Shown piece by piece: positions 4,152 to 12,319 of a DNA stretch of 13,203 bases. Both the position numbers and the translations under genes were made by a program. Origin of the DNA: Neptuniibacter sp. (lineage in GTDB: Bacteria; Pseudomonadota; Gammaproteobacteria; Pseudomonadales; Balneatricaceae); assembly GCA_030149405.1 (NCBI GenBank), contig JASBRM010000341.1:1-13203 (forward strand), given 5' to 3'. Position 1 is the stretch's first letter. Each line of letters opens with the position of its first letter. A model generated the notes under the pieces. That model worked only from the letters and a program-made list of their open reading frames with translations, had not been told where the DNA came from and did no database searches.

Positions 4152-4745
4152 TTACAAACACCCTTTTGTAGATGGCATTACATTCGCAGCACGTGCATCA
4201 ATTTCCAATGCATTTCGCAGTGCGCGCCCAAACGCTTTAAAGATCGTCTCAGCCTGGTGGTGAGCATTAAAGCCTTTCAGGTTATCAATGTGCAGCGTCA
4301 CGCCAGCGTGGTTTACAAAGCCCTGGAAAAATTCCCAGAACAATTGCGTATCCAGTTTACCAATGCTGGCACGGGTAAATTCAACGTCCATCTCTAAACC
4401 TGGGCGGCCAGAGAAATCGATTACAACACGCGACAAAGCTTCATCCAGCGGGCAATACGCGTGGCCATAACGCATGATACCTTTGCGATCGCCTACTGCT
4501 TCACGGAACGCCTGTCCCAGCGTGATGCCAATATCTTCTACCGTGTGGTGATCATCAATATGTGTATCACCGTTTGCCTGAATATCCAGATCAATCAGAC
4601 CGTGGCGGGAGATCTGCTCCATCATGTGCTCTAAAAAAGGCACACCGGTTTCGGCCTTAAACTGGCCCGTACCATCAATGTTTACAGATACAGTGATCTG
4701 CGTTTCCAATGTATCTCGGCTTACCTTGGCTTTACGCTCCGCCAT
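4152..4745 (-). CDS. hisB: Imidazoleglycerol-phosphate dehydratase HisB (monofunctional)
   Basis: HisB converts imidazole glycerol phosphate to imidazole acetol phosphate in histidine synthesis. At 197 residues it is the single-domain form, without the histidinol-phosphatase domain fused in enterobacteria, so the phosphatase must come from another gene. Metal-binding motifs are intact: [11 protein letters not shown] (His66, His67, Glu70) and the second [14 protein letters not shown] (His162, His163, Glu166). The end, PSTKGCL, is typical of the family. The start is supported by GGGAG seven bases before the ATG. It is the first gene of the hisB-hisH-hisF unit and is divergent from the diguanylate cyclase gene. 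A perfect TATAAT at 4783-4778 on the minus strand is its probable -10 box. Confidence 0.98.
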
Positions 4746-4777
4746 GGTTATCTCCCGCTAGTTAAAACTGAGCCGAG

Positions 4778-4783
4778 ATTATA
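4778..4783 (-). promoter_or_regulatory. Probable -10 box of the hisBHF operon
   Basis: On the minus strand this reads TATAAT, a perfect -10 hexamer, 32 bp before the hisB start codon. The hexamer 17 bp upstream (GTGCAT) is a poor -35, so the promoter may need an activator. No histidine leader peptide with a run of His codons is visible between it and hisB, so classical his attenuation is unlikely. Confidence 0.5.
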
Positions 4784-4815
4784 CATCCATCCCAACAACC
4801 ATGCACTTCTAACAA

Positions 4816-4846
4816 GCACCCAAAGAGGCAAATAAGCCTCAGGTGC
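4816..4846 (+). promoter_or_regulatory. Two-tier hairpin followed by T-rich tract in the leader of the cyclase gene
   Basis: GCACC (4816-4820) pairs with GGTGC (4842-4846), and inside it GAGGC (4825-4829) pairs with GCCTC (4836-4840) around an AAATAA loop, leaving CAAA opposite a single A as an internal bulge. ACTATCTTTT follows. The shape resembles an intrinsic terminator or attenuator on the plus strand, yet it sits 40 bp before a coding start rather than after a gene. Confidence 0.45.
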
Positions 4847-4854
4847 ACTATCTT

Positions 4855-4874
4855 TTAATTACTGCAGTAATTAA
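4855..4874. promoter_or_regulatory. Perfect 20-bp palindrome before the diguanylate cyclase gene
   Basis: TTAATTACTGCAGTAATTAA is identical to its own reverse complement over all 20 bases and ends 11 bp before the cyclase ATG. This is the size and symmetry expected of an operator for a dimeric repressor; as RNA it could also mask the weak ribosome site. No repressor gene is adjacent, so the cognate protein is unknown. Confidence 0.5.
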
Positions 4875-4885
4875 GAAGTACGCAG

Positions 4886-5788
4886 ATGGACCAGATCACC
4901 TTACAACAACTACTCAGAGGTAATCACAAGGCATTGCTCTTGGTGATCAACGCTCTCCCTTTCCCAATCTATTACAAAGATAAAAATGGATTATATCTGG
5001 GCTGCAATAAAGCCTACGAAGAATACGCTAGCGTCAAACGTGAAGAGATCATCGGCAAAAATGTGTTCAGCATATTTGAAGATGAAGCCGCATCAATTTT
5101 CGACCAATCAGACCGAGAACTCATAAATAATCCCGGTGAACAGATTTACGAAACACATGTAAGCCGCTCGGGGCAGGAGACCCAATATGTAAAATTTCAT
5201 AAGGCGACGTTCTTTGATGAAAATAACCAAGTAGCCGGCATACTCGGGGCAATTATCGACATTACAGAACAGAAGCAACTTGAAGCTAAGCTCAAACATT
5301 TTGCTTCTTATGATGATCTAACAGGCATCTACAACCGACGCGAAGGCAACAGGCAACTTAAAAAAAGAGTTCAGCATGCTCATCGCAAAAACAGCGCCCT
5401 TACGGTTATGTTGATTGATCTTGATAATTTTAAATCGATCAATGACACATTTGGTCACGAGACCGGTGATAACATACTTATCGCGACAGCTGCATGCCTG
5501 GCTGATAACTCCAGAGCCAATGACATCCTCTGCCGTTACGGAGGTGAGGAATTCCTTATCATTCTTCCTGAAACCGATACGCAAGCGGCATTGACCATTG
5601 CTGAACGCCATCGGAAAGCGTTAACAAAGATCAGTGTGCCCCTGGCTGGGGCTAAAAACCTTCACATCACCGCCAGTTTTGGTATCAGTGAAATGGGCAG
5701 CGACGAGTCTGAACGCGCATTGATGAAACACGCAGACATCGCCCTTTATAAAGCCAAACATCAGGGGAAAAACCGCGTCTGTTCTTGA
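4886..5788 (+). CDS. PAS-GGDEF diguanylate cyclase
   Basis: This is a 300-residue predicted cytoplasmic enzyme that makes cyclic di-GMP from two GTP. Residues about 15-130 form a PAS sensor domain (INALPFPIYYKDKNGLYLGC near its start, GAIIDITEQKQLEAKL as the linker). Residues about 140-298 are the GGDEF domain: DDLTGIYNRR from residue 143, the active-site signature GGEEF at 219-223, and RAND at 210-213, the RxxD product-inhibition site five residues upstream. Both sites are intact, so an active, feedback-inhibited enzyme is expected. There is no signal peptide or membrane helix, and the PAS ligand cannot be read from sequence. It is transcribed alone, divergent from hisB. The ribosome site is weak (AAGAAG), and its leader carries a hairpin and a 20-bp palindrome. 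The family call is firm; the signal and target are unknown. Confidence 0.95.
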   Translation: MDQITLQQLLRGNHKALLLVINALPFPIYYKDKNGLYLGCNKAYEEYASVKREEIIGKNVFSIFEDEAASIFDQSDRELINNPGEQIYETHVSRSGQETQYVKFHKATFFDENNQVAGILGAIIDITEQKQLEAKLKHFASYDDLTGIYNRREGNRQLKKRVQHAHRKNSALTVMLIDLDNFKSINDTFGHETGDNILIATAACLADNSRANDILCRYGGEEFLIILPETDTQAALTIAERHRKALTKISVPLAGAKNLHITASFGISEMGSDESERALMKHADIALYKAKHQGKNRVCS

Positions 5789-5815
5789 ATTTACTTTCCC
5801 GTACAATGATTTACA

Positions 5816-5843
5816 TTGAAACTTAATGAATACCGTTTATGCT
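5816..5843 (+). promoter_or_regulatory. Probable sigma-70 promoter of the asmA-mutY-yggX operon
   Basis: TTGAAA (5816-5821) and TATGCT (5838-5843) are separated by 16 bp and match the consensus at five and four of six positions. Transcription would begin near 5850, giving a leader of about 24 nt with an AAGGAGAG ribosome site before the asmA-like start. Confidence 0.45.
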
Positions 5844-5873
5844 TCGTGATTCAACCTGACCAAGGAGAGATCG

Positions 5874-7994
5874 ATGAAAGGTTTGCTAAAAATTATCGCC
5901 GGGATTGCCATCCTGCTAGTCGTAGTGGTCGCAGCGGGCGGTGCCATTCTGGGTGCTTTCTTCGACCCGAACGAATACAAACCCGAAATTGAAAACGCTG
6001 CATTAGAAAATGGCGGCGTTGAATTAAAGATCAATGGCAATATCGGTTGGTCGGTCTTCCCCTGGTTAGGGCTGGAAGTTAATAAAATTGATGTTAAGTT
6101 CCCGCGTAAAGCAGATCTTGCCAGTTTGAATCAGGCACAGATTTCGGTACGTCTGCCAGCACTGTTCTCCGGCAAAGTTGAAATGCAGAGTGTCGTTGTA
6201 GACGGTCTGGTGCTGAATCTGGTGAAAGAGAAAGACGGCTCAGCAAACTGGGCCGCTGAGGTCAGCACCCAGAAAGGCAAAGACGATTCTGAGTCTCAAG
6301 AAATATCATCGGACCGTTCTGAAAAAAGTGAACTGGCTCTGGATATAGATAGCATCCAGATCACAAACGGCAATATCACTTACACCGATAAAACCACTGA
6401 TTCTGAAGCACGCCTGACGGAGTTCAATATGACTTCAGGTCAGGTGGTGACAAATGCCTTCTTCCCTGCTGAACTGAGTTTCAATGCAGTACAAACTGTA
6501 AAAGGTGAAGAACAGGTTAAAGCCACAGCAAAACTGGGCGCTGAGTTTTTTCTCGATCTGGAAAAACAGCAGTACCAAATCAAAGGCCTGAGCAGTGACC
6601 TGACCATAAGCGGAAAACCGATTGGTGGAAATACATTATCTCTGAGCACTCAGGCAGACATTGCAGCTGATCTTTTGGCGCAAACTGCAGAAATCAGTAG
6701 CCTGAAACTCTCCATCGCAGACCTGGTAGCCAATGGTAATCTGAAGGTGAAGAACTTTGCAGCTCCAGAGATCAGCGGCAAGCTGGATATTTCTCAGTTT
6801 GATCTTAATAAACTTCTGGCAACGGTAGGTCAGGCAGAGGTTGAAACCACTGATCCGAAAGCGCTTTCTGCCATCAGCGCTAACGTTGTTCTGGGCGGCC
6901 CGGCTAATACAGTAACGGCAAAGAACCTGACACTGAAACTGGATGATACAACCTTCAATGGCTCTGCAGGTTTCGATATGGCTAGCGGTAATATCGCCCT
7001 TAACCTGCAAGGCGATAAACTCGACGCAGATCGTTATATGCCTCCAGCAACAGAGCAGCAGCAAGAAGCTAAAGAAAATAAAGGCACTCAAAGCAAAGGC
7101 TATCCAAAAGATCCGATTCTTCCGGTTGAAGCCCTAAAAGCGCTGGAACTGGATGCAACATTTGGCCTTAAGCAGCTACATGTTTCCAATCTGGATATGA
7201 GTAATATCGCCGTACAGGTTAATGCTCATGGTGGGTTGATTAAAGCCAGCAAAATTGATGTCGATCTGTATGGCGGCAGTGTCCGTAACAACGTAACTGT
7301 TGATGTTCGTAAGAAAACCCCGCTAATCACAACCAAGAAAAACATCACCGGCATTCAGGTTGGTGAAGTTCTGCAGGCAGCAGCTCAGGTAGACAAACTT
7401 ACCGGCACACTGAATTCATCATCCAACCTGACACTGCGTGGCAACTCTGTACATGACTTTGTAAACAGCGTTACCGGTAATGCCAAGGTCAACATGAAAG
7501 ACGGCGAAGTTCATGGCATCGATATGGCCCACACAGTTTGCCAGGGCATGAACAACATCAGTTCTATGGGTGTGGACACTCAGGAAGTGGACCGTTCAAC
7601 ACCGTTTGCCAACATGGGCGCGACTGCCAAAATCACCAACGGTGTGGTTAAAAACAACGACCTGAAAGCGGCTTTGGATGCCATGGCATTAAGCGGGAAA
7701 GGTACAGTGAACCTACCGAAGCAGCTTTTGGATTACCGCCTTGGCTTCATGGTTGAGAAGAACCTATTTAAAGAAAGCTGTTCATTCCCTGACTCTCTGG
7801 AAGGTGTCGAGATCCCTATTGATTGCAAAGGCAGCTTCGACACTGACCCGGCGAAACTGTGTAAGCCTGACTTCAGTTTTATTACCGATGCTTTGAAAAA
7901 CAAAGTAAAAGAGAAGGTGGAAACTAAAGCTAAAGAAAAAGTGGAAGAAAAACTTAAAGACAAACTGGGTGACAAACTGAAAGGACTCTTTTAA
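5874..7994 (+). CDS. AsmA family protein
   Basis: A 706-residue member of the AsmA family, large proteins anchored in the inner membrane whose body lies in the periplasm. The family is linked to outer-membrane assembly and, in newer models, lipid transfer between membranes. Residues about 5-30 are a strongly hydrophobic anchor (IIAGIAILLVVVVAAGGAIL). The N-terminal AsmA signature follows (ALENGGVELKINGNIGWSVFPWLGLEVNKI), then long beta-rich repeats, and a C-terminal AsmA_2-type part (VNMKDGEVHGIDMAHTVCQGMNNI). The last 35 or so residues are a lysine/glutamate-rich, probably helical tail. ATG 5874 has an excellent AAGGAGAG ribosome site. The gene ends 6 bp before mutY, so the two are probably co-transcribed. 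I give no symbol because several AsmA paralogues exist. Confidence 0.9.
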   Translation: MKGLLKIIAGIAILLVVVVAAGGAILGAFFDPNEYKPEIENAALENGGVELKINGNIGWSVFPWLGLEVNKIDVKFPRKADLASLNQAQISVRLPALFSGKVEMQSVVVDGLVLNLVKEKDGSANWAAEVSTQKGKDDSESQEISSDRSEKSELALDIDSIQITNGNITYTDKTTDSEARLTEFNMTSGQVVTNAFFPAELSFNAVQTVKGEEQVKATAKLGAEFFLDLEKQQYQIKGLSSDLTISGKPIGGNTLSLSTQADIAADLLAQTAEISSLKLSIADLVANGNLKVKNFAAPEISGKLDISQFDLNKLLATVGQAEVETTDPKALSAISANVVLGGPANTVTAKNLTLKLDDTTFNGSAGFDMASGNIALNLQGDKLDADRYMPPATEQQQEAKENKGTQSKGYPKDPILPVEALKALELDATFGLKQLHVSNLDMSNIAVQVNAHGGLIKASKIDVDLYGGSVRNNVTVDVRKKTPLITTKKNITGIQVGEVLQAAAQVDKLTGTLNSSSNLTLRGNSVHDFVNSVTGNAKVNMKDGEVHGIDMAHTVCQGMNNISSMGVDTQEVDRSTPFANMGATAKITNGVVKNNDLKAALDAMALSGKGTVNLPKQLLDYRLGFMVEKNLFKESCSFPDSLEGVEIPIDCKGSFDTDPAKLCKPDFSFITDALKNKVKEKVETKAKEKVEEKLKDKLGDKLKGLF

Positions 7995-8000
7995 TTCCAG

Positions 8001-9050
8001 ATGACACCCGAGCAATTCTCAAGCGCCGTGCTGGAATGGTTTGACCAGCACGGCCGCCACGACCTGCCCTGGCAGGAAAACAAAACCGCCTATAACACCT
8101 GGATATCAGAGATCATGTTGCAACAGACCCAAGTTGCTACGGTGATCCCCTATTACCAGCGGTTTATGGAGCGTTTTCCAACGGTAGAATCCCTCGCTGA
8201 AGCGGAACAGGATGAAGTACTGCACCTGTGGACAGGACTGGGCTACTACGCCCGTGCTCGCAACCTGCATAAAGCCGCTAAAATAGTCAGTCAGGAATAC
8301 AGCGGCATTTTCCCTGAGTCCGTTCTGAAACTGGAAGAATTACCCGGCATCGGTCGATCAACCGCAGGCGCAGTGCTCTCAATCAGCACGGGGAAGTGGG
8401 CACCGATCCTGGATGGTAATGTAAAACGGGTTTTGGCCCGCTTCTATGCTATTGAAGGATGGCCCGGCACCACAGCAAACCAGAAGCAGCTCTGGAGCTA
8501 TGCCGAAGCCAACACTCCCCATCAGCGCGTAGGTGAATACACTCAAGCCATGATGGACTTAGGGGCAACACTCTGCACCCGAAGTAAACCGAGCTGCCTG
8601 CTCTGCCCTTTACAACAAAGCTGTAAAGCCTTTGAACTGGGTAAAACCGATCAATTGCCGGCGCCTAAGCCAAAAAAAGAAAAACCGGTTAAACAAACCT
8701 ACATGCTGATCCTGCATCAGCACTCAGAAAAAGAGGTTTTACTCTACCAGAGACCCGCTACAGGTATCTGGGGAGGGCTATGGGGTTTCCCGGAGGTTTC
8801 AGACCTGCGCGACACCCTCAACGAAACGGGTTTGGAACTGGAAGAAAGCAGTTTGCAGATACTGGAACCCATGCGACATACCTTCAGCCACTTCCATCTG
8901 GATATAACCCCAGTGAAAGCAAGGGTGAATACCCCTACAGACTCTGTCATGGAAGGAAAAGCCCTGCTCTGGTATAACATAGAACAACCTGAAAACGTCG
9001 GCCTCGCAGCCCCAGTCAAAAAGCTGCTGCAACAACTGGCTGACTCGTAA
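8001..9050 (+). CDS. mutY: A/G-specific adenine DNA glycosylase MutY
   Basis: MutY removes adenine mispaired with 8-oxoguanine, preventing G:C to T:A mutations. All key features are present in 349 residues: Glu37 in [10 protein letters not shown], the helix-hairpin-helix [11 protein letters not shown] (114-124), catalytic Asp138 in [11 protein letters not shown], and the [4Fe-4S] ligands Cys192, Cys199, Cys202 and Cys208, spaced as in the E. coli enzyme. The C-terminal part (about 230-349) is the NUDIX-like domain that reads 8-oxoG, with [11 protein letters not shown]. The ribosome site is weak (AAAGGA, within the end of the asmA-like gene), so translation may be coupled to it. yggX follows after 19 bp. 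Confidence 0.98.
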
Positions 9051-9069
9051 CAAATTTTGGAGCAACACC

Positions 9070-9342
9070 ATGAGCCGCACGGTACTTTGCCGCAAATACA
9101 AAGAAGAACTTGAAGGTCTGGACCGCCCACCTTACCCGGGCCCAAAAGGCCAGGAGATCTATGACACTGTCTCCAAAAAAGCCTGGAAAGAATGGACGGA
9201 TCACCAGACGATGATCATCAACGAAAAACACCTGAGCATGATGGACCCATCAACCCGCGAATTCCTGCAATCCGAGATGGAAAAATTCATGGATGGCGGC
9301 GATTACGAGAAAGCCGAAGGCTACGTACCACCTTCAAAATAG
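9070..9342 (+). CDS. yggX: YggX family probable Fe(2+)-trafficking protein
   Basis: A small cytoplasmic protein of 90 residues, the usual length, proposed to handle labile iron and protect iron-sulphur enzymes against oxidants. It opens [20 protein letters not shown] with the conserved Cys7 and keeps the family blocks [17 protein letters not shown] and [17 protein letters not shown] lies 8 bp before the ATG. The pairing with mutY is conserved in gammaproteobacteria and joins repair of oxidised DNA to iron protection. No hairpin terminator is visible between it and the tRNA promoter 17 bp downstream. Confidence 0.97.
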
Positions 9343-9359
9343 TTTTTTGTAACAAGTGG

Positions 9360-9388
9360 TTGACAGTTTTAGGCTAAGACGGTTTAAT
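9360..9388 (+). promoter_or_regulatory. Strong sigma-70 promoter of tRNA-Phe copy 1
   Basis: A perfect TTGACA at 9360-9365, a 17-bp spacer and TTTAAT at 9383-9388 (five of six) lie just before the first tRNA. The discriminator after the -10 box, ACGCGCC, is GC-rich, as in stringently controlled stable-RNA promoters. The start site would be near 9395. Confidence 0.85.
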
Positions 9389-9404
9389 ACGCGCCACCTG
9401 AGTT

Positions 9405-9480
9405 GCCCGGATAGCTCAGTCGGTAGAGCAGAGGATTGAAAATCCTCGTGTCGGTGGTTCGATTCCGCCTCCGGGCACCA
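9405..9480 (+). tRNA. tRNA-Phe (GAA), copy 1
   Basis: A 76-nt cloverleaf. The acceptor stem GCCCGGA pairs with TCCGGGC, the D arm is AGCTCAGTCGGTAGAGC, the anticodon arm AGAGGATTGAAAATCCTC has GAA at 9438-9440, and the T arm is GGTGG TTCGATT CCGCC with one G-U pair. The 3' CCA is encoded. It differs from the E. coli gene mainly in the T stem. It has its own promoter and terminator. Confidence 0.98.
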
Positions 9481-9499
9481 CTTAAAGGTCAAATTTGAA

Positions 9500-9524
9500 G
9501 CCTCGTTCTCAAACGGGGCTTTTT
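9500..9524 (+). terminator. Terminator after tRNA-Phe copy 1
   Basis: GCCTCGTT (9500-9507) pairs with AACGGGGC (9512-9519), with one T-G wobble and a CTCA loop, followed by TTTTT. It lies between the two tRNA genes, so the second copy depends on read-through or on its own promoter. Confidence 0.88.
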
Positions 9525-9555
9525 AGTCCTAAGACCTAACTCAGAAACAGTTTTC

Positions 9556-9631
9556 GCCCGGATAGCTCAGTCGGTAGAGCAGAGGATTGAAAATCCTCGT
9601 GTCGGTGGTTCGATTCCGCCTCCGGGCACCA
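9556..9631 (+). tRNA. tRNA-Phe (GAA), copy 2
   Basis: All 76 bases are identical to copy 1, including the GAA anticodon and encoded CCA, while the sequences on either side differ. No clear -35/-10 pair is visible in the 31 bp between the preceding terminator and this gene. It therefore probably relies on incomplete termination or on a promoter overlapping the terminator. Confidence 0.98.
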
Positions 9632-9640
9632 AATAAAACA

Positions 9641-9665
9641 GCCTCGCTCATAGCGGGGCTTTTTT
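9641..9665 (+). terminator. Terminator after tRNA-Phe copy 2
   Basis: GCCTCGCT (9641-9648) pairs with AGCGGGGC (9652-9659), with one T-G wobble and a CAT loop, then six T. It resembles the terminator of copy 1 in stem sequence but not in loop, so the tRNA-plus-terminator unit looks like an old tandem duplication. Confidence 0.9.
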
Positions 9666-9987
9666 ATTTGTACCCGAAGGCTGGATGAGAATCACGACCG
9701 TGGTTCGACAAAATGCGCCCACAGAAGCATTTTGGACAAGCAAGCCAAGCTTGCGCAGCCCTCTCACAAGAGAGGGGCTTAATTTCCAAGAAGGAAATTA
9801 AGATCATTCCGCCTCAGCAGATTATCACTCTCTCCTGCACGCAACCCTTAGCATCTAATTAACAACACTTCTGATAATTCAATCTGGTAAATAGGAGACC
9901 CCATAGGTTTCCGGGCCTGCCGCTGATAACCTTAGTCATTAAACCCGCGTACAATCAATACTGACTATCCATCATTGAGCTTTAATA
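9666..9987. other. Gene-free stretch with a tRNA-like remnant and a hairpin array
   Basis: No coding region is convincing here. Bases 9671-9722 faintly resemble a shrunken tRNA-Phe (CCCG, GGCT, GGAT-GAGAATC, then GTGGTTCGA at 9700-9708, identical to the T arm). Four hairpins then follow at 9709-9802. ATTCCGCCTC at 9806-9815 also equals ten bases of the tRNA-Phe T arm. From 9816 to the next gene I see only a possible -10 box, TACAAT at 9951-9956, for the following gene. Confidence 0.5.
9709..9802. repeat. Array of four consecutive inverted repeats
   Basis: CAAAATGC (9709-9716) pairs with GCATTTTG (9727-9734). GCAAGC (9740-9745) pairs with GCTTGC (9749-9754). CCCTCTC (9759-9765) pairs with GAGAGGG (9770-9776) around ACAA. 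CTTAATTTCC (9778-9787) pairs perfectly with GGAAATTAAG (9793-9802) around AAGAA. All stems are uninterrupted. This may be a dispersed repeat or a structured RNA; its nature is unknown. Confidence 0.7.
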
Positions 9988-10263
9988 ATGATCAAATTTT
10001 TCCGCATTATCAGCCTGTTAGAAGGGCTATCCTACTTGGCAATTTTAAGCGTCACACTGGGTTATATCAGCCGTGATTATGTCTCTTCAATCGGCATGAC
10101 CCACGGCATCCTGTTTATGATCTACATGATCATAGCCCTCTCGAACAATATAAACTGGTCATCACGACAGCAGTTAGGCTTGATGGCAGCAGCCGTAATC
10201 CCCTTCGCCTTTATCCCCACCGAGATCTATTTGCAGAAACAAGAACAGAAAAAACCGGCATAG
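9988..10263 (+). CDS. DUF3817-type small integral membrane protein
   Basis: A 91-residue inner-membrane protein of unknown function. It has about three hydrophobic segments: residues 8-27 (SLLEGLSYLAILSVTLGYIS), 38-52 (MTHGILFMIYMIIAL) and 64-80 (LGLMAAAVIPFAFIPTE). The N-terminal FRIISLLEGLSYL, the central HG.LF and the PFAFIP near the third segment agree with the DUF3817 pattern as I know it. The C-terminus is short, charged and probably cytoplasmic. The Shine-Dalgarno sequence is poor (GAGC). The TAG stop lies inside the loop of the terminator hairpin, so the gene ends without any 3' leader. It is monocistronic and converges on the AT-rich ATPase gene. Confidence 0.8.
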   Translation: MIKFFRIISLLEGLSYLAILSVTLGYISRDYVSSIGMTHGILFMIYMIIALSNNINWSSRQQLGLMAAAVIPFAFIPTEIYLQKQEQKKPA

Positions 10264-10274
10264 AGCCGGTTTTT
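10250..10274. terminator. Bidirectional terminator with the stop codon in its loop
   Basis: AAAAACCGGC (10250-10259) pairs with GCCGGTTTTT (10265-10274) around ATAGA; the loop holds the TAG stop of the DUF3817 gene. T tracts flank the stem on both strands, so it can also stop transcripts from the convergent ATPase gene, whose stop is 76 bp away. The intervening 10275-10349 has no gene. Confidence 0.9.
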
Positions 10275-10349
10275 GTTAGTTTATGGGGAGCTAGGCTAGG
10301 AGCCAGCGAAGCTAAAATTAACTCTGCCCCCATTTTTTTATTGCTCTCT

Positions 10350-12209
10350 TTACATGTGATTCTCGATATTCTGCTTCATACTGTCCTTTAGAATTTCGAG
10401 AAAAGTTTTGTTTCTAGACTTTGCGTCTTCGACAATCGCGTCATATGAGAGCACTGTAGTTGGGGTAGGTACCGATACACCACCCACCCCTTTCGTAGTA
10501 AATTCTTTATAGAAAACCTTTCCTTTAGAAAACAACGGATCTAAGCCAAATTGTTCCAGCCGCTCTGAAAGCTCGTCACTTATATGAATTACTGCGTAAT
10601 ACCAGATTCGCTGTATCTTGGGGCAATACTTCGCTAGTTTTGAGGCCCTCTGAAGGAGCTGGGTAACTGCATACATATTTGCTTCTTCATCATCGCTCTT
10701 CTTCTTAATTTCAACAATAACCACATCAGTTACTTCATTTCCAAATGGGTCTGAAGAAAAAATCATTGCAATATCTGGGCGTCCAGCTTCCTCCAACTCT
10801 TTATCAGTTGTGATTTCACGTATTATAGTATCCATCCTTTTTTCACTAAGAATGGTGCTAAAACTCATAAATTTGTCATCTAACAACCATGCGTTATTTC
10901 TATATAAACTTTCACAAAAGTCTTCTGACCTAAAAACATTTCTTTTAGGGACAATTAAGTTATGAATTTCATCTTCTGAATTACTAAAATCCATTGTGCT
11001 TATTTTCTGTATTATCTTTTCTCTATAAAGCACATATTCAGTCAATGCCCTAGAAGATAGCTCTAGCGATTTATCGTATGCTCTATCATCTAAGCTTTCA
11101 CATTCTAATATTTCCTTTTGCTCTTTAAAGAGCTTATCCTGAGCAGTTTTCAAGGCATCGTCCTTATCTACCAGACCTACGGTATCACTTTCAAAATAGC
11201 CCAATAAATGTGGGTACTTATTTTCAAAAGTTTTTCTGGTTTCCTTGTTTCTTTTTTCAATGGTGGGAACTTTGTCAGAAAGAAGTTTACCTATTTCTCG
11301 TTTGAACACTCTCTTTAAACTTTCAATAGGCATATCGCCGGGTAACGCTAAATTTTGTCTAGCACTATCCGCTCTAGCTTTAAAAATTTCAGAAGAGAAC
11401 AGAACTATAACCGAATAACCAATTGGTATAGATAGCTGTGGAAGTAAGCCAATTTCAATTGTTCTCCCATCTATGCAAACAGCGATTAAACTTCGCCCTC
11501 TCTCAGGCACTTTTCTGATGCTGTAGTGCATATTTACGCTATTGCATATGTCTATAGAGTCATCTTGGATCTCTATTAATTCCATATCAGGAAGATCACG
11601 ACTAGTAATGACAAGGCTGTCAGAAAAGAATTCTTTTTGCTTATTTTCCTTATCAACTGACAAGTCGATTCTGATATTAAAATCCCGACCTTCATTTCTC
11701 ATCTCATTAAAGGTTGGTAAGAAATGATCGATGATCCTATCTTTCAAAACATCAGGTTTTATATCCCCATATGATTTAATTTTTTTACCCTGAAAGCCTT
11801 TAAACTTTAGCTCTGTGTAATTCAGGCCATTTTTATGCTCAACAAGTGGAACTTCTGGGTCAAAATCGCTTTTAAATGTAAAGTGCCTTGAAAGTCCGGA
11901 GAAGAAACTATCTATATCCACTCGATCAAAATATTTTAAAAAAACAAGCCTACCAATGCCTTTATGAAAGCCATCTTTTGGCTTTAACAGCTTTTTGAAG
12001 CGTTCAAAGCTCTCATCAGTGAACCCTGTTCCATTATCACGAATACAAATTCGGAGTGTGTCGGGTTTATCATACGATTCAACGTATATTGAAATGGTGA
12101 TGTCATCAGCACCTGCATCCAAGGAATTTGCCAGTGCTTCATAGTAGACAAGCGCTAATGATGTATTGGGAAAGAAAAGTTCAATAGCGCCTTTTGTTTC
12201 AATATCCAT
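10350..12209 (-). CDS. GHKL (MORC/Hsp90-type) ATPase fused to a PD-(D/E)xK nuclease-like domain
   Basis: A 619-residue cytoplasmic protein. The N-terminal GHKL ATPase is complete: the N box EALANSLDAGAD (Glu24, Asn28, Asp31), DNGTGF at 58-63 and the lid KGIGR at 83-87. About 190-330 resembles the transducer-like second domain of MORC/MutL/Hsp90 proteins, followed by a charged, partly helical stretch. The C-terminal part (about 440-560) has a PD-(D/E)xK pattern: Asp479 in GRPDIAMIF, Glu500-Ile-Lys502 in VVIVEIKKK, then AVTQLLQRASKL. MORC-like ATPases fused or linked to nucleases are known from bacterial restriction and defence loci; a role in anti-phage defence here is inference. The start at 12209 follows AAGGA; an upstream ATG at 12245 has no such site. 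The gene is clearly AT-richer than its neighbours (16 of 60 G+C in 10861-10920 against 36 of 60 in 8221-8280, single-line samples), suggesting transfer. No methylase or partner gene adjoins it. The 110 bp before the start hold no gene. Confidence 0.85.
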   Translation of the reverse strand: MDIETKGAIELFFPNTSLALVYYEALANSLDAGADDITISIYVESYDKPDTLRICIRDNGTGFTDESFERFKKLLKPKDGFHKGIGRLVFLKYFDRVDIDSFFSGLSRHFTFKSDFDPEVPLVEHKNGLNYTELKFKGFQGKKIKSYGDIKPDVLKDRIIDHFLPTFNEMRNEGRDFNIRIDLSVDKENKQKEFFSDSLVITSRDLPDMELIEIQDDSIDICNSVNMHYSIRKVPERGRSLIAVCIDGRTIEIGLLPQLSIPIGYSVIVLFSSEIFKARADSARQNLALPGDMPIESLKRVFKREIGKLLSDKVPTIEKRNKETRKTFENKYPHLLGYFESDTVGLVDKDDALKTAQDKLFKEQKEILECESLDDRAYDKSLELSSRALTEYVLYREKIIQKISTMDFSNSEDEIHNLIVPKRNVFRSEDFCESLYRNNAWLLDDKFMSFSTILSEKRMDTIIREITTDKELEEAGRPDIAMIFSSDPFGNEVTDVVIVEIKKKSDDEEANMYAVTQLLQRASKLAKYCPKIQRIWYYAVIHISDELSERLEQFGLDPLFSKGKVFYKEFTTKGVGGVSVPTPTTVLSYDAIVEDAKSRNKTFLEILKDSMKQNIENHM

Positions 12210-12319
12210 AGTATTCCTTTCTACACAGCATCCTGCTGATGACAATCAAAAAGAATCTACATCATAACAAATAAAAAAAAAGTGAACAGGCAATCACATC
12301 AAACTAACAACCCTTAAAC

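Follow-up and report, generated by a model that had tools for sequence, protein, structure and literature searches.

A candidate single-gene defence factor joining a GHKL ATPase to a predicted nuclease at a variable site beyond tRNA-Phe in Neptuniibacter sp.

Locus and host genome

The window, i.e. the whole stretch of DNA that was analysed, is a contig of 13,203 bp. The gene under study encodes a GHKL ATPase fused to a predicted nuclease (the GHKL-nuclease gene), and the following features belong to it or lie next to it:

9405-9480 and 9556-9631, plus strand: a pair of tRNA-Phe genes, identical to each other, on the margin of the conserved mutY-yggX-tRNA block
9988-10263: DUF3817 gene, between the tRNA-Phe genes and the GHKL-nuclease gene
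10250-10274, no strand assigned: bidirectional terminator-like hairpin, between the 3' end of the GHKL-nuclease gene and the DUF3817 gene
10350-12209, minus strand: GHKL ATPase-nuclease fusion gene, putatively paraMORC3-like (open reading frame, 619 aa, Pfam, motif conservation)
10353-10997, minus strand: predicted PD-(D/E)xK-type nuclease domain, residues 405-619, with E412, D479, E500, K502 and Q517 (conservation, profile match)
10998-11327, minus strand: predicted helical linker, residues 295-404 (secondary structure of the model)
11262-12209, minus strand: GHKL ATPase and transducer (S5-like) module, residues 1-316, with E24, N28, DNGTGF 58-63 and KGIGR 83-87 (Pfam, fold match, conservation)
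12210-12319, minus strand: upstream region with the Shine-Dalgarno-like stretch AGAAAGGA

The open reading frame starts with an ATG at 12209, ends at 10350 on the minus strand and encodes 619 aa. A longer form starting from a TTG at 12245 is not preferred, because the Shine-Dalgarno-like AGAAAGGA precedes the ATG at 12209. The promoter scan of 12210-12319 reported no promoter-like site, and three terminator-like hairpins were found in the region, versus 1.2 (sd 1.1) in shuffled sequences. The gene was described in a first-pass annotation as AT-rich and as lying some 700 bp after tandem tRNA-Phe genes, and both statements agree with the measurements: its GC content is 36.5% versus 47.7% for the rest of the window, and 719 bp separate the end of the tRNA-Phe pair from its 3' end. 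The accompanying description of an insertion between housekeeping genes is only partly accurate. The gene lies past the conserved mutY-yggX-tRNA-Phe block, but it is adjoined by the DUF3817 gene on one side and by a DUF1826 gene on the other, and thus its immediate neighbours are not classical housekeeping genes. No methylase, toxin or other partner was seen in the window, which ends with the contig at position 13203.

The surroundings of the tRNA genes were compared in 10 congeners. The mutY and yggX genes and at least one tRNA-Phe gene occur together in all of them, and the tandem tRNA-Phe pair is also found in most congeners with enough sequence. At least 9.5 kb past the tRNA is available in eight congeners, while the contigs of the remaining two stop there; no match to the GHKL-nuclease was detected in these stretches in any of the ten. 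The genes past the tRNA are mostly unshared among the eight, apart from one run that G005 has in common with G004 and individual genes that occur in other pairs, and DUF1826 lies past the tRNA in one congener, G002. The site past tRNA-Phe is therefore described as variable. DUF1826 as such was found in nine of the ten congeners, and mutY in all ten at 71-87% identity, so the contig fits the genus.

The GHKL-nuclease is absent from all 10 congeners and from all 25 other members of the taxonomic family, and in the set of 57 genomes, the window's own aside, partial matches were observed in two more distant genomes. Rather than a universal gene of typical composition, the outcome that the first-pass annotation had named as contrary to its reading, this is a gene with deviant GC content that is missing from the congeners; it is apparently of foreign origin and was probably acquired horizontally. 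A tRNA-targeted element was considered and dropped, and the designation of a variable site beyond tRNA-Phe was retained. An exact copy of at least the last 12 bases of the tRNA was found on neither strand past position 9631, where the best 20-base matches have six mismatches, and no integrase was recognised by eye among the reading frames of the window. Eight genes past the tRNA were sampled by hand in five congeners: G007 accounts for two restriction or methylase genes, and the other six have signalling, transport or metabolic functions. With six of the eight sampled genes ordinary, a defence hotspot at this site is not shown. The stretch past tRNA-Phe in G007 carries a C5 cytosine methylase gene and a GmrSD_N gene (L105, 2847-3884 and 4607-5773).

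Domain architecture and conservation

The residues of a complete GHKL ATPase and of a D479-x20-E500-x-K502 nuclease motif, as listed in the first-pass annotation (E24, N28, D31, DNGTGF 58-63, KGIGR 83-87, D479, E500 and K502), are all present in the translation, and their conservation was assessed across 65 aligned proteins of the family (57 from the 77 loci described below, 8 from databases), whose identities to the window protein go down to 36%. Thirteen positions are invariant in 65/65 members: E24, N28, D58, G60, G62, G84, G86 and R87 in the ATPase part, and E412, D479, E500, K502 and Q517 in the nuclease part; D31, N59 and K83 are kept in at least 90%. Since residues of both parts are invariant across members as distant as 36% identity, the motif match exceeds what chance would give.

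A profile search, proposed earlier as a check on both halves of the protein, gave HATPase_c and HATPase_c_3 above the Pfam cut-offs (residues 17-75), but only a sub-threshold hint of PDDEXK_9 (E 0.0082, residues 474-544). The HATPase models match all 65 aligned members, whereas SduA_C (DUF4263, PF14082) matches 0/65 at E 0.1 or better. A PADLOC search with the window protein returned nothing at E 1 or better. In PHROGs, residues 386-613 matched phrog_6203, a family of unknown function (E 2.8e-14), and the ATPase part gave a weak kinase match.

A first structure model, built from 25 close relatives, had a mean pLDDT of 67.3 and was set aside. The fold search with the predicted model placed MORC3 and MORC2 at the top, together with MutL, Hsp90 and topoisomerase VI-B, the rows covering residues 1-316 of the window protein only; a nuclease fold was absent among the best 50 rows of each fold search. 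Sequence searches of the PDB yielded ATPase-type and apparently chance matches, and no nuclease. The predicted secondary structure of residues ~456-540 follows the element order of a PD-(D/E)xK core, in line with the core postulated around residues 479-502. By the model, residues 1-316 form a GHKL and MORC-like transducer module, and the C-terminal part is predicted from its sequence to be a PD-(D/E)xK-type nuclease, the fold being inferred. Of the MORC-like ATPase fused to a nuclease that had been suggested at the outset, the first half and the motif of the second are thus recovered, and the nuclease fold stands as a prediction.

Size and distribution of the family

Among 5.8 billion proteins searched, 1409 matched at E 1e-3 or better. 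Among the 120 matches listed, the window's own aside, identities are 55-58% over 99-100% of the query, with lengths of 625-637 aa. By a scan of one genome per species with two exact peptide patterns, which favours close relatives, 77 loci with the family were collected from Pseudomonadota, Bacteroidota, Verrucomicrobiota and several other phyla; the 20 loci outside the alignment are close copies, truncated, interrupted or lacking a start. In L031, L043, L050 and L073 the gene is interrupted (two reading frames or an early stop), which may reflect decay or assembly errors. In an even sample of the host's phylum the family is present in 2/398 genomes at E 1e-15, one of which is the window's own. 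Relatives were also found on 12 viral contigs (L131-L142). Two of these relatives have 36% identity; the other ten, at 25-27% identity, belong to a type that is further removed and whose NxWLLDDKFM motif is similar. The phage records searched contained no match to the window protein, and the plasmid records gave seven matches at 21-30% identity.

Relationship to known GHKL-nuclease systems

The first-pass annotation had not recognised the gene as belonging to a named kind. A name does exist for this little-studied kind: the paraMORC3 proteins, described by Iyer, Abhiman and Aravind in 2008 (PMC2292703), combine a GHKL domain, an S5 domain and a C-terminal nuclease with an E-D-ExK motif, include a standalone subset and are prevalent in Proteobacteria and Bacteroidetes. 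The window protein shares with them the N-terminal GHKL domain with its ATP-binding motifs; residues 1-316 align, in the predicted model, with the modules of MORC, MutL and topoisomerases in which an S5-type transducer is present; and E412, D479 and E500-x-K502 fit E-D-ExK in 65/65 members, a likeness of motif only. One difference is that many relatives of the window gene lie in type 3 BREX operons, which the 2008 paper predates. By layout, motif and distribution as described in 2008, the gene may be classed as paraMORC3-like.

The same layout is found in a protein that restricts phages. VcSduA, the GHKL-Shedu protein of Vibrio cholerae VSP-II, is reported to carry DUF4263 (SduA_C) and shields E. 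coli from Drexlerviridae phages, strongly from one of them, with both active sites required (PMC12137116). By its described layout it resembles the window gene in being a single, standalone protein with an N-terminal GHKL domain and a C-terminal PD-(D/E)xK domain, but SduA_C is reported in VcSduA and no SduA_C match was found in the window family. VcSduA also bears on how such a protein might act. PD-(D/E)xK domains can serve as abortive effectors, and a survey of BREX loci proposes backup suicidal nucleases there (PMC12839542); infection could accordingly lead the window protein to degrade host DNA or an RNA and stop the cell, instead of restricting the phage. We regard this as improbable, given that VcSduA protected at all multiplicities tried and preserved the cells (PMC12137116). 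Among other GHKL proteins, CapK is described in PMC13373217, and the eukaryotic MORC2 and MORC3 ATPases are among the closest known systems.

The kinship of the nuclease part was traced by profile comparison, in which all E-values refer to single comparisons. Residues 400-619 matched the C-termini of the GHKL-nucleases L002, L003, L127 and L128 at 98.5% (E 2e-15), and these C-termini matched SduA_C at 90% (E 1.5e-6), whereas the direct comparison of residues 400-619 with SduA_C was not significant (2.3%). A second path leads through a separate family of 672-aa GHKL-nucleases, which was found from L146 and whose profile was built from 40 of 120 listed members. Over its full length the window family matched it at 99.6% (residues 20-611, E 9e-24); for the nuclease part by itself the match was 95.7% (E 8.4e-9). 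The nuclease part of the 672-aa family matched SduA_C at 85% (E 6.2e-6), but gave 4.8% against the nuclease part of the BbrUII/HgiDII enzymes, where the true-direction comparison failed. The true-direction comparison of the phage-type members with SduA_C likewise failed (0.8%). Six reversed and 15 column-shuffled controls for the nuclease-part comparisons all stayed below 1%, the reversed 672-aa comparison gave 0.8%, and the nuclease part against an unrelated ATPase part gave 6.7%.

Because the window nuclease matches the L002-type and 672-aa families and these in turn match SduA_C, its domain appears, from these profiles, to be distantly related to the Shedu-type nuclease, the two being linked only by way of intermediates. 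The label Shedu itself was rejected, with SduA_C in none of the 65 members and the direct profile match at 2.3%. The 672-aa family is a full-length profile relative of the window family, yet separate from it; its proteins, from enterobacteria and vibrios, are named 'ATP-binding protein' and have no precomputed Pfam domain in the 120 listed members. It was not equated with VcSduA, as six members have E27 and K556, versus E27 and K557 in PMC12137116. In L146 (G053) the 672-aa gene (4550-6568) lies near a helicase-like gene (7596-10982, 1128 aa, identified by eye). The BbrUII/HgiDII enzymes (NF050001) also share the N-terminal GHKL domain and have nuclease motifs in register (profile match 96.2%, E 2.4e-9); however, it is the ATPase part (97.0%, E 1.1e-10) that contributes most of the significance, the nuclease part alone giving 41% (E 2.7e-4), and the window protein scores 21.2 bits against the NF050001 cut-off of 550.

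Genomic context of the relatives

As a description of the window copy, the term orphan holds: it stands alone, with no partner seen in the contig. For the family it does not, since relatives lie inside type 3 BREX operons in 18/77 loci and near type I restriction-modification (RM) genes in 9/77. Neighbours were assigned by blastp clustering of adjacent reading frames. PADLOC was used to name the genes of a single locus each for BREX (L006) and Gabija (L026), and Pfam names for type I RM were checked on L035; 'BREX3' required 2 of 5 neighbour clusters and 'RM1' 2 of 3, anywhere in the fetched flanks, some of which were ended by contig edges. The operon of L006 contains BrxF, BrxC, PglXI, BrxHI/BrxHII, PglZ and BrxA, i.e. 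the six core components of type 3 BREX (PMC12839542). PglXI lies downstream of the GHKL-nuclease gene on the same strand in 18/18 BREX loci, and BrxC upstream in 17/18, the exception being L010, whose contig starts 3.1 kb upstream. A protein with SLFN_AlbA_2 and HATPase_c_4 domains, as named on L006 (8146-10011, 621 aa) and L078 (11913-13235, 440 aa), is encoded in 16/18 BREX operons and in two type I RM loci, and this Schlafen-type protein is a possible partner of the GHKL-nuclease. The type I RM clusters are directly adjacent in six of the nine loci. The nine include L062 and L076, which are identical to each other and stem from a single genome record set. A Gabija-type pair occurs in 2/77 loci, and a third pair inside the BREX operon of L032. 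In the Marinobacter locus L019 the relative is followed by a reverse transcriptase on the other strand (RVT_1, 440 aa, 12090-13412) and preceded by T5orf172 and helicase-type proteins.

A description of a GHKL-nuclease gene inside type 3 BREX was not found in a literature search that mostly covered papers free of subscription. Near BREX, the survey of such loci mentions fusions of Shedu type as well as Schlafen-type RNases that carry a minimal histidine kinase; its main text contains none of the terms paraMORC, Bergerat, GHKL, HSP90-like and 'ATP-binding protein' (PMC12839542).

A core role in BREX was rejected. A PglXI relative at E 1e-40 is present in 7 of the 398 genomes of the phylum sample (searched with the same settings as for the family and taken as the same sample), and the family (E 1e-15) in none of these seven. 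Present in the BREX operons of 18/77 loci but in 0/7 genomes with PglXI, the GHKL-nuclease accompanies some BREX loci as an optional passenger. A tree was built of 75 rows: the window copy, 4 of the 12 viral relatives and the 70 loci with more than 580 residues. On this tree, BREX location requires 5 changes, versus 16.4 for shuffled labels. The window copy stands alone on a long branch, within a group of 27 rows that is supported (SH-aLRT 99) and comprises 17 BREX-borne copies, eight other copies, one Gabija copy and the window copy itself. No BREX gene is present in the window and no PglZ in the host genome, and the window gene is neither Shedu nor a BREX component.

The remaining 48/77 loci, some on short contigs, have none of the defence neighbours sought. 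PADLOC models at E 1e-15 in these loci numbered 139 for 79 nearest neighbours, versus 59 for 79 distant rows (78 distinct), a count of models and not of proteins over hand-picked rows.

These contexts raise the question of whether the window copy could be an accessory that has become separated from a larger restriction system and depends on methylation marks or partners from an unlinked one, such as the type I RM genes of the host. The BREX and type I RM associations of its relatives are compatible with this, N6_Mtase (HsdM-type) genes lie on two other host contigs, each followed by a specificity-type reading frame (by eye), and for standalone paraMORC3 proteins the possibility of unlinked RM partners was raised by Iyer et al. 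(PMC2292703). Against it are the 48 loci lacking such neighbours, the missing PglZ and the activity of VcSduA, which has the same layout, on its own in E. coli (PMC12137116); we consider such a dependence unlikely. A MutL-like DNA repair factor with no role in defence is very improbable in view of the patchy distribution, the deviant GC content, the relatives in defence operons and a score of 21.9 bits against the NCBIfam mutl cut-off of 180.

Discussion

The window gene is probably a single-gene anti-phage (or anti-plasmid) restriction factor of paraMORC3-like type, ATP-gated and gained horizontally at the variable site past tRNA-Phe. The defence reading draws on the layout, the motif conservation, the modelled ATPase fold, the kinship with other GHKL-nucleases, the defence operons of relatives, the deviant GC content and the absence from congeners. 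The designation as a candidate single-gene defence factor in the first-pass annotation is most likely right. Several observations speak against it: 48/77 loci lack the defence genes sought, the direct comparison with SduA_C gave 2.3%, six of the eight genes sampled past the tRNA in congeners are ordinary, and no promoter-like site was reported upstream.

In the proposed mechanism, the GHKL domain would bind ATP and the protein would dimerise via its N-terminal module, the transducer closing as a DNA clamp by analogy with MORC, MutL and type II topoisomerases. The helical linker (residues ~295-404) may relay the closed state to the C-terminal PD-(D/E)xK-type domain, which would then cut invading DNA, its presumed substrate. 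Control of the C-terminal nuclease by the ATPase is suggested by analogy with VcSduA. Discrimination of self from non-self would have to proceed without a linked methylase, and the window copy would be expected to protect against phages.

More tentatively, the family may represent a mobile ATP-gated nuclease module that moves between standalone loci, loci of type I restriction and type 3 BREX operons (between BrxC and PglXI, usually with the Schlafen-type protein). The window copy might then sense foreign DNA by shape, ends or topology through the clamp, with no need of a linked methylase. If so, the BREX-borne form would provide DNA cleavage for a system whose effector step is unsettled.

The family adds to the GHKL-nuclease defence proteins a divergent subfamily that is missed by PADLOC models, by Pfam SduA_C and by an NCBIfam cut-off, some of its members lying within type 3 BREX operons or close to type I restriction genes. 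Should the clamp-and-cut mechanism prove right, the gene would offer a one-gene system for studying DNA choice by MORC-type ATPases and a bacterial counterpart to the MORC silencing of invading DNA. What most deserves attention is that members of this subfamily recur inside type 3 BREX operons together with a Schlafen-type protein.
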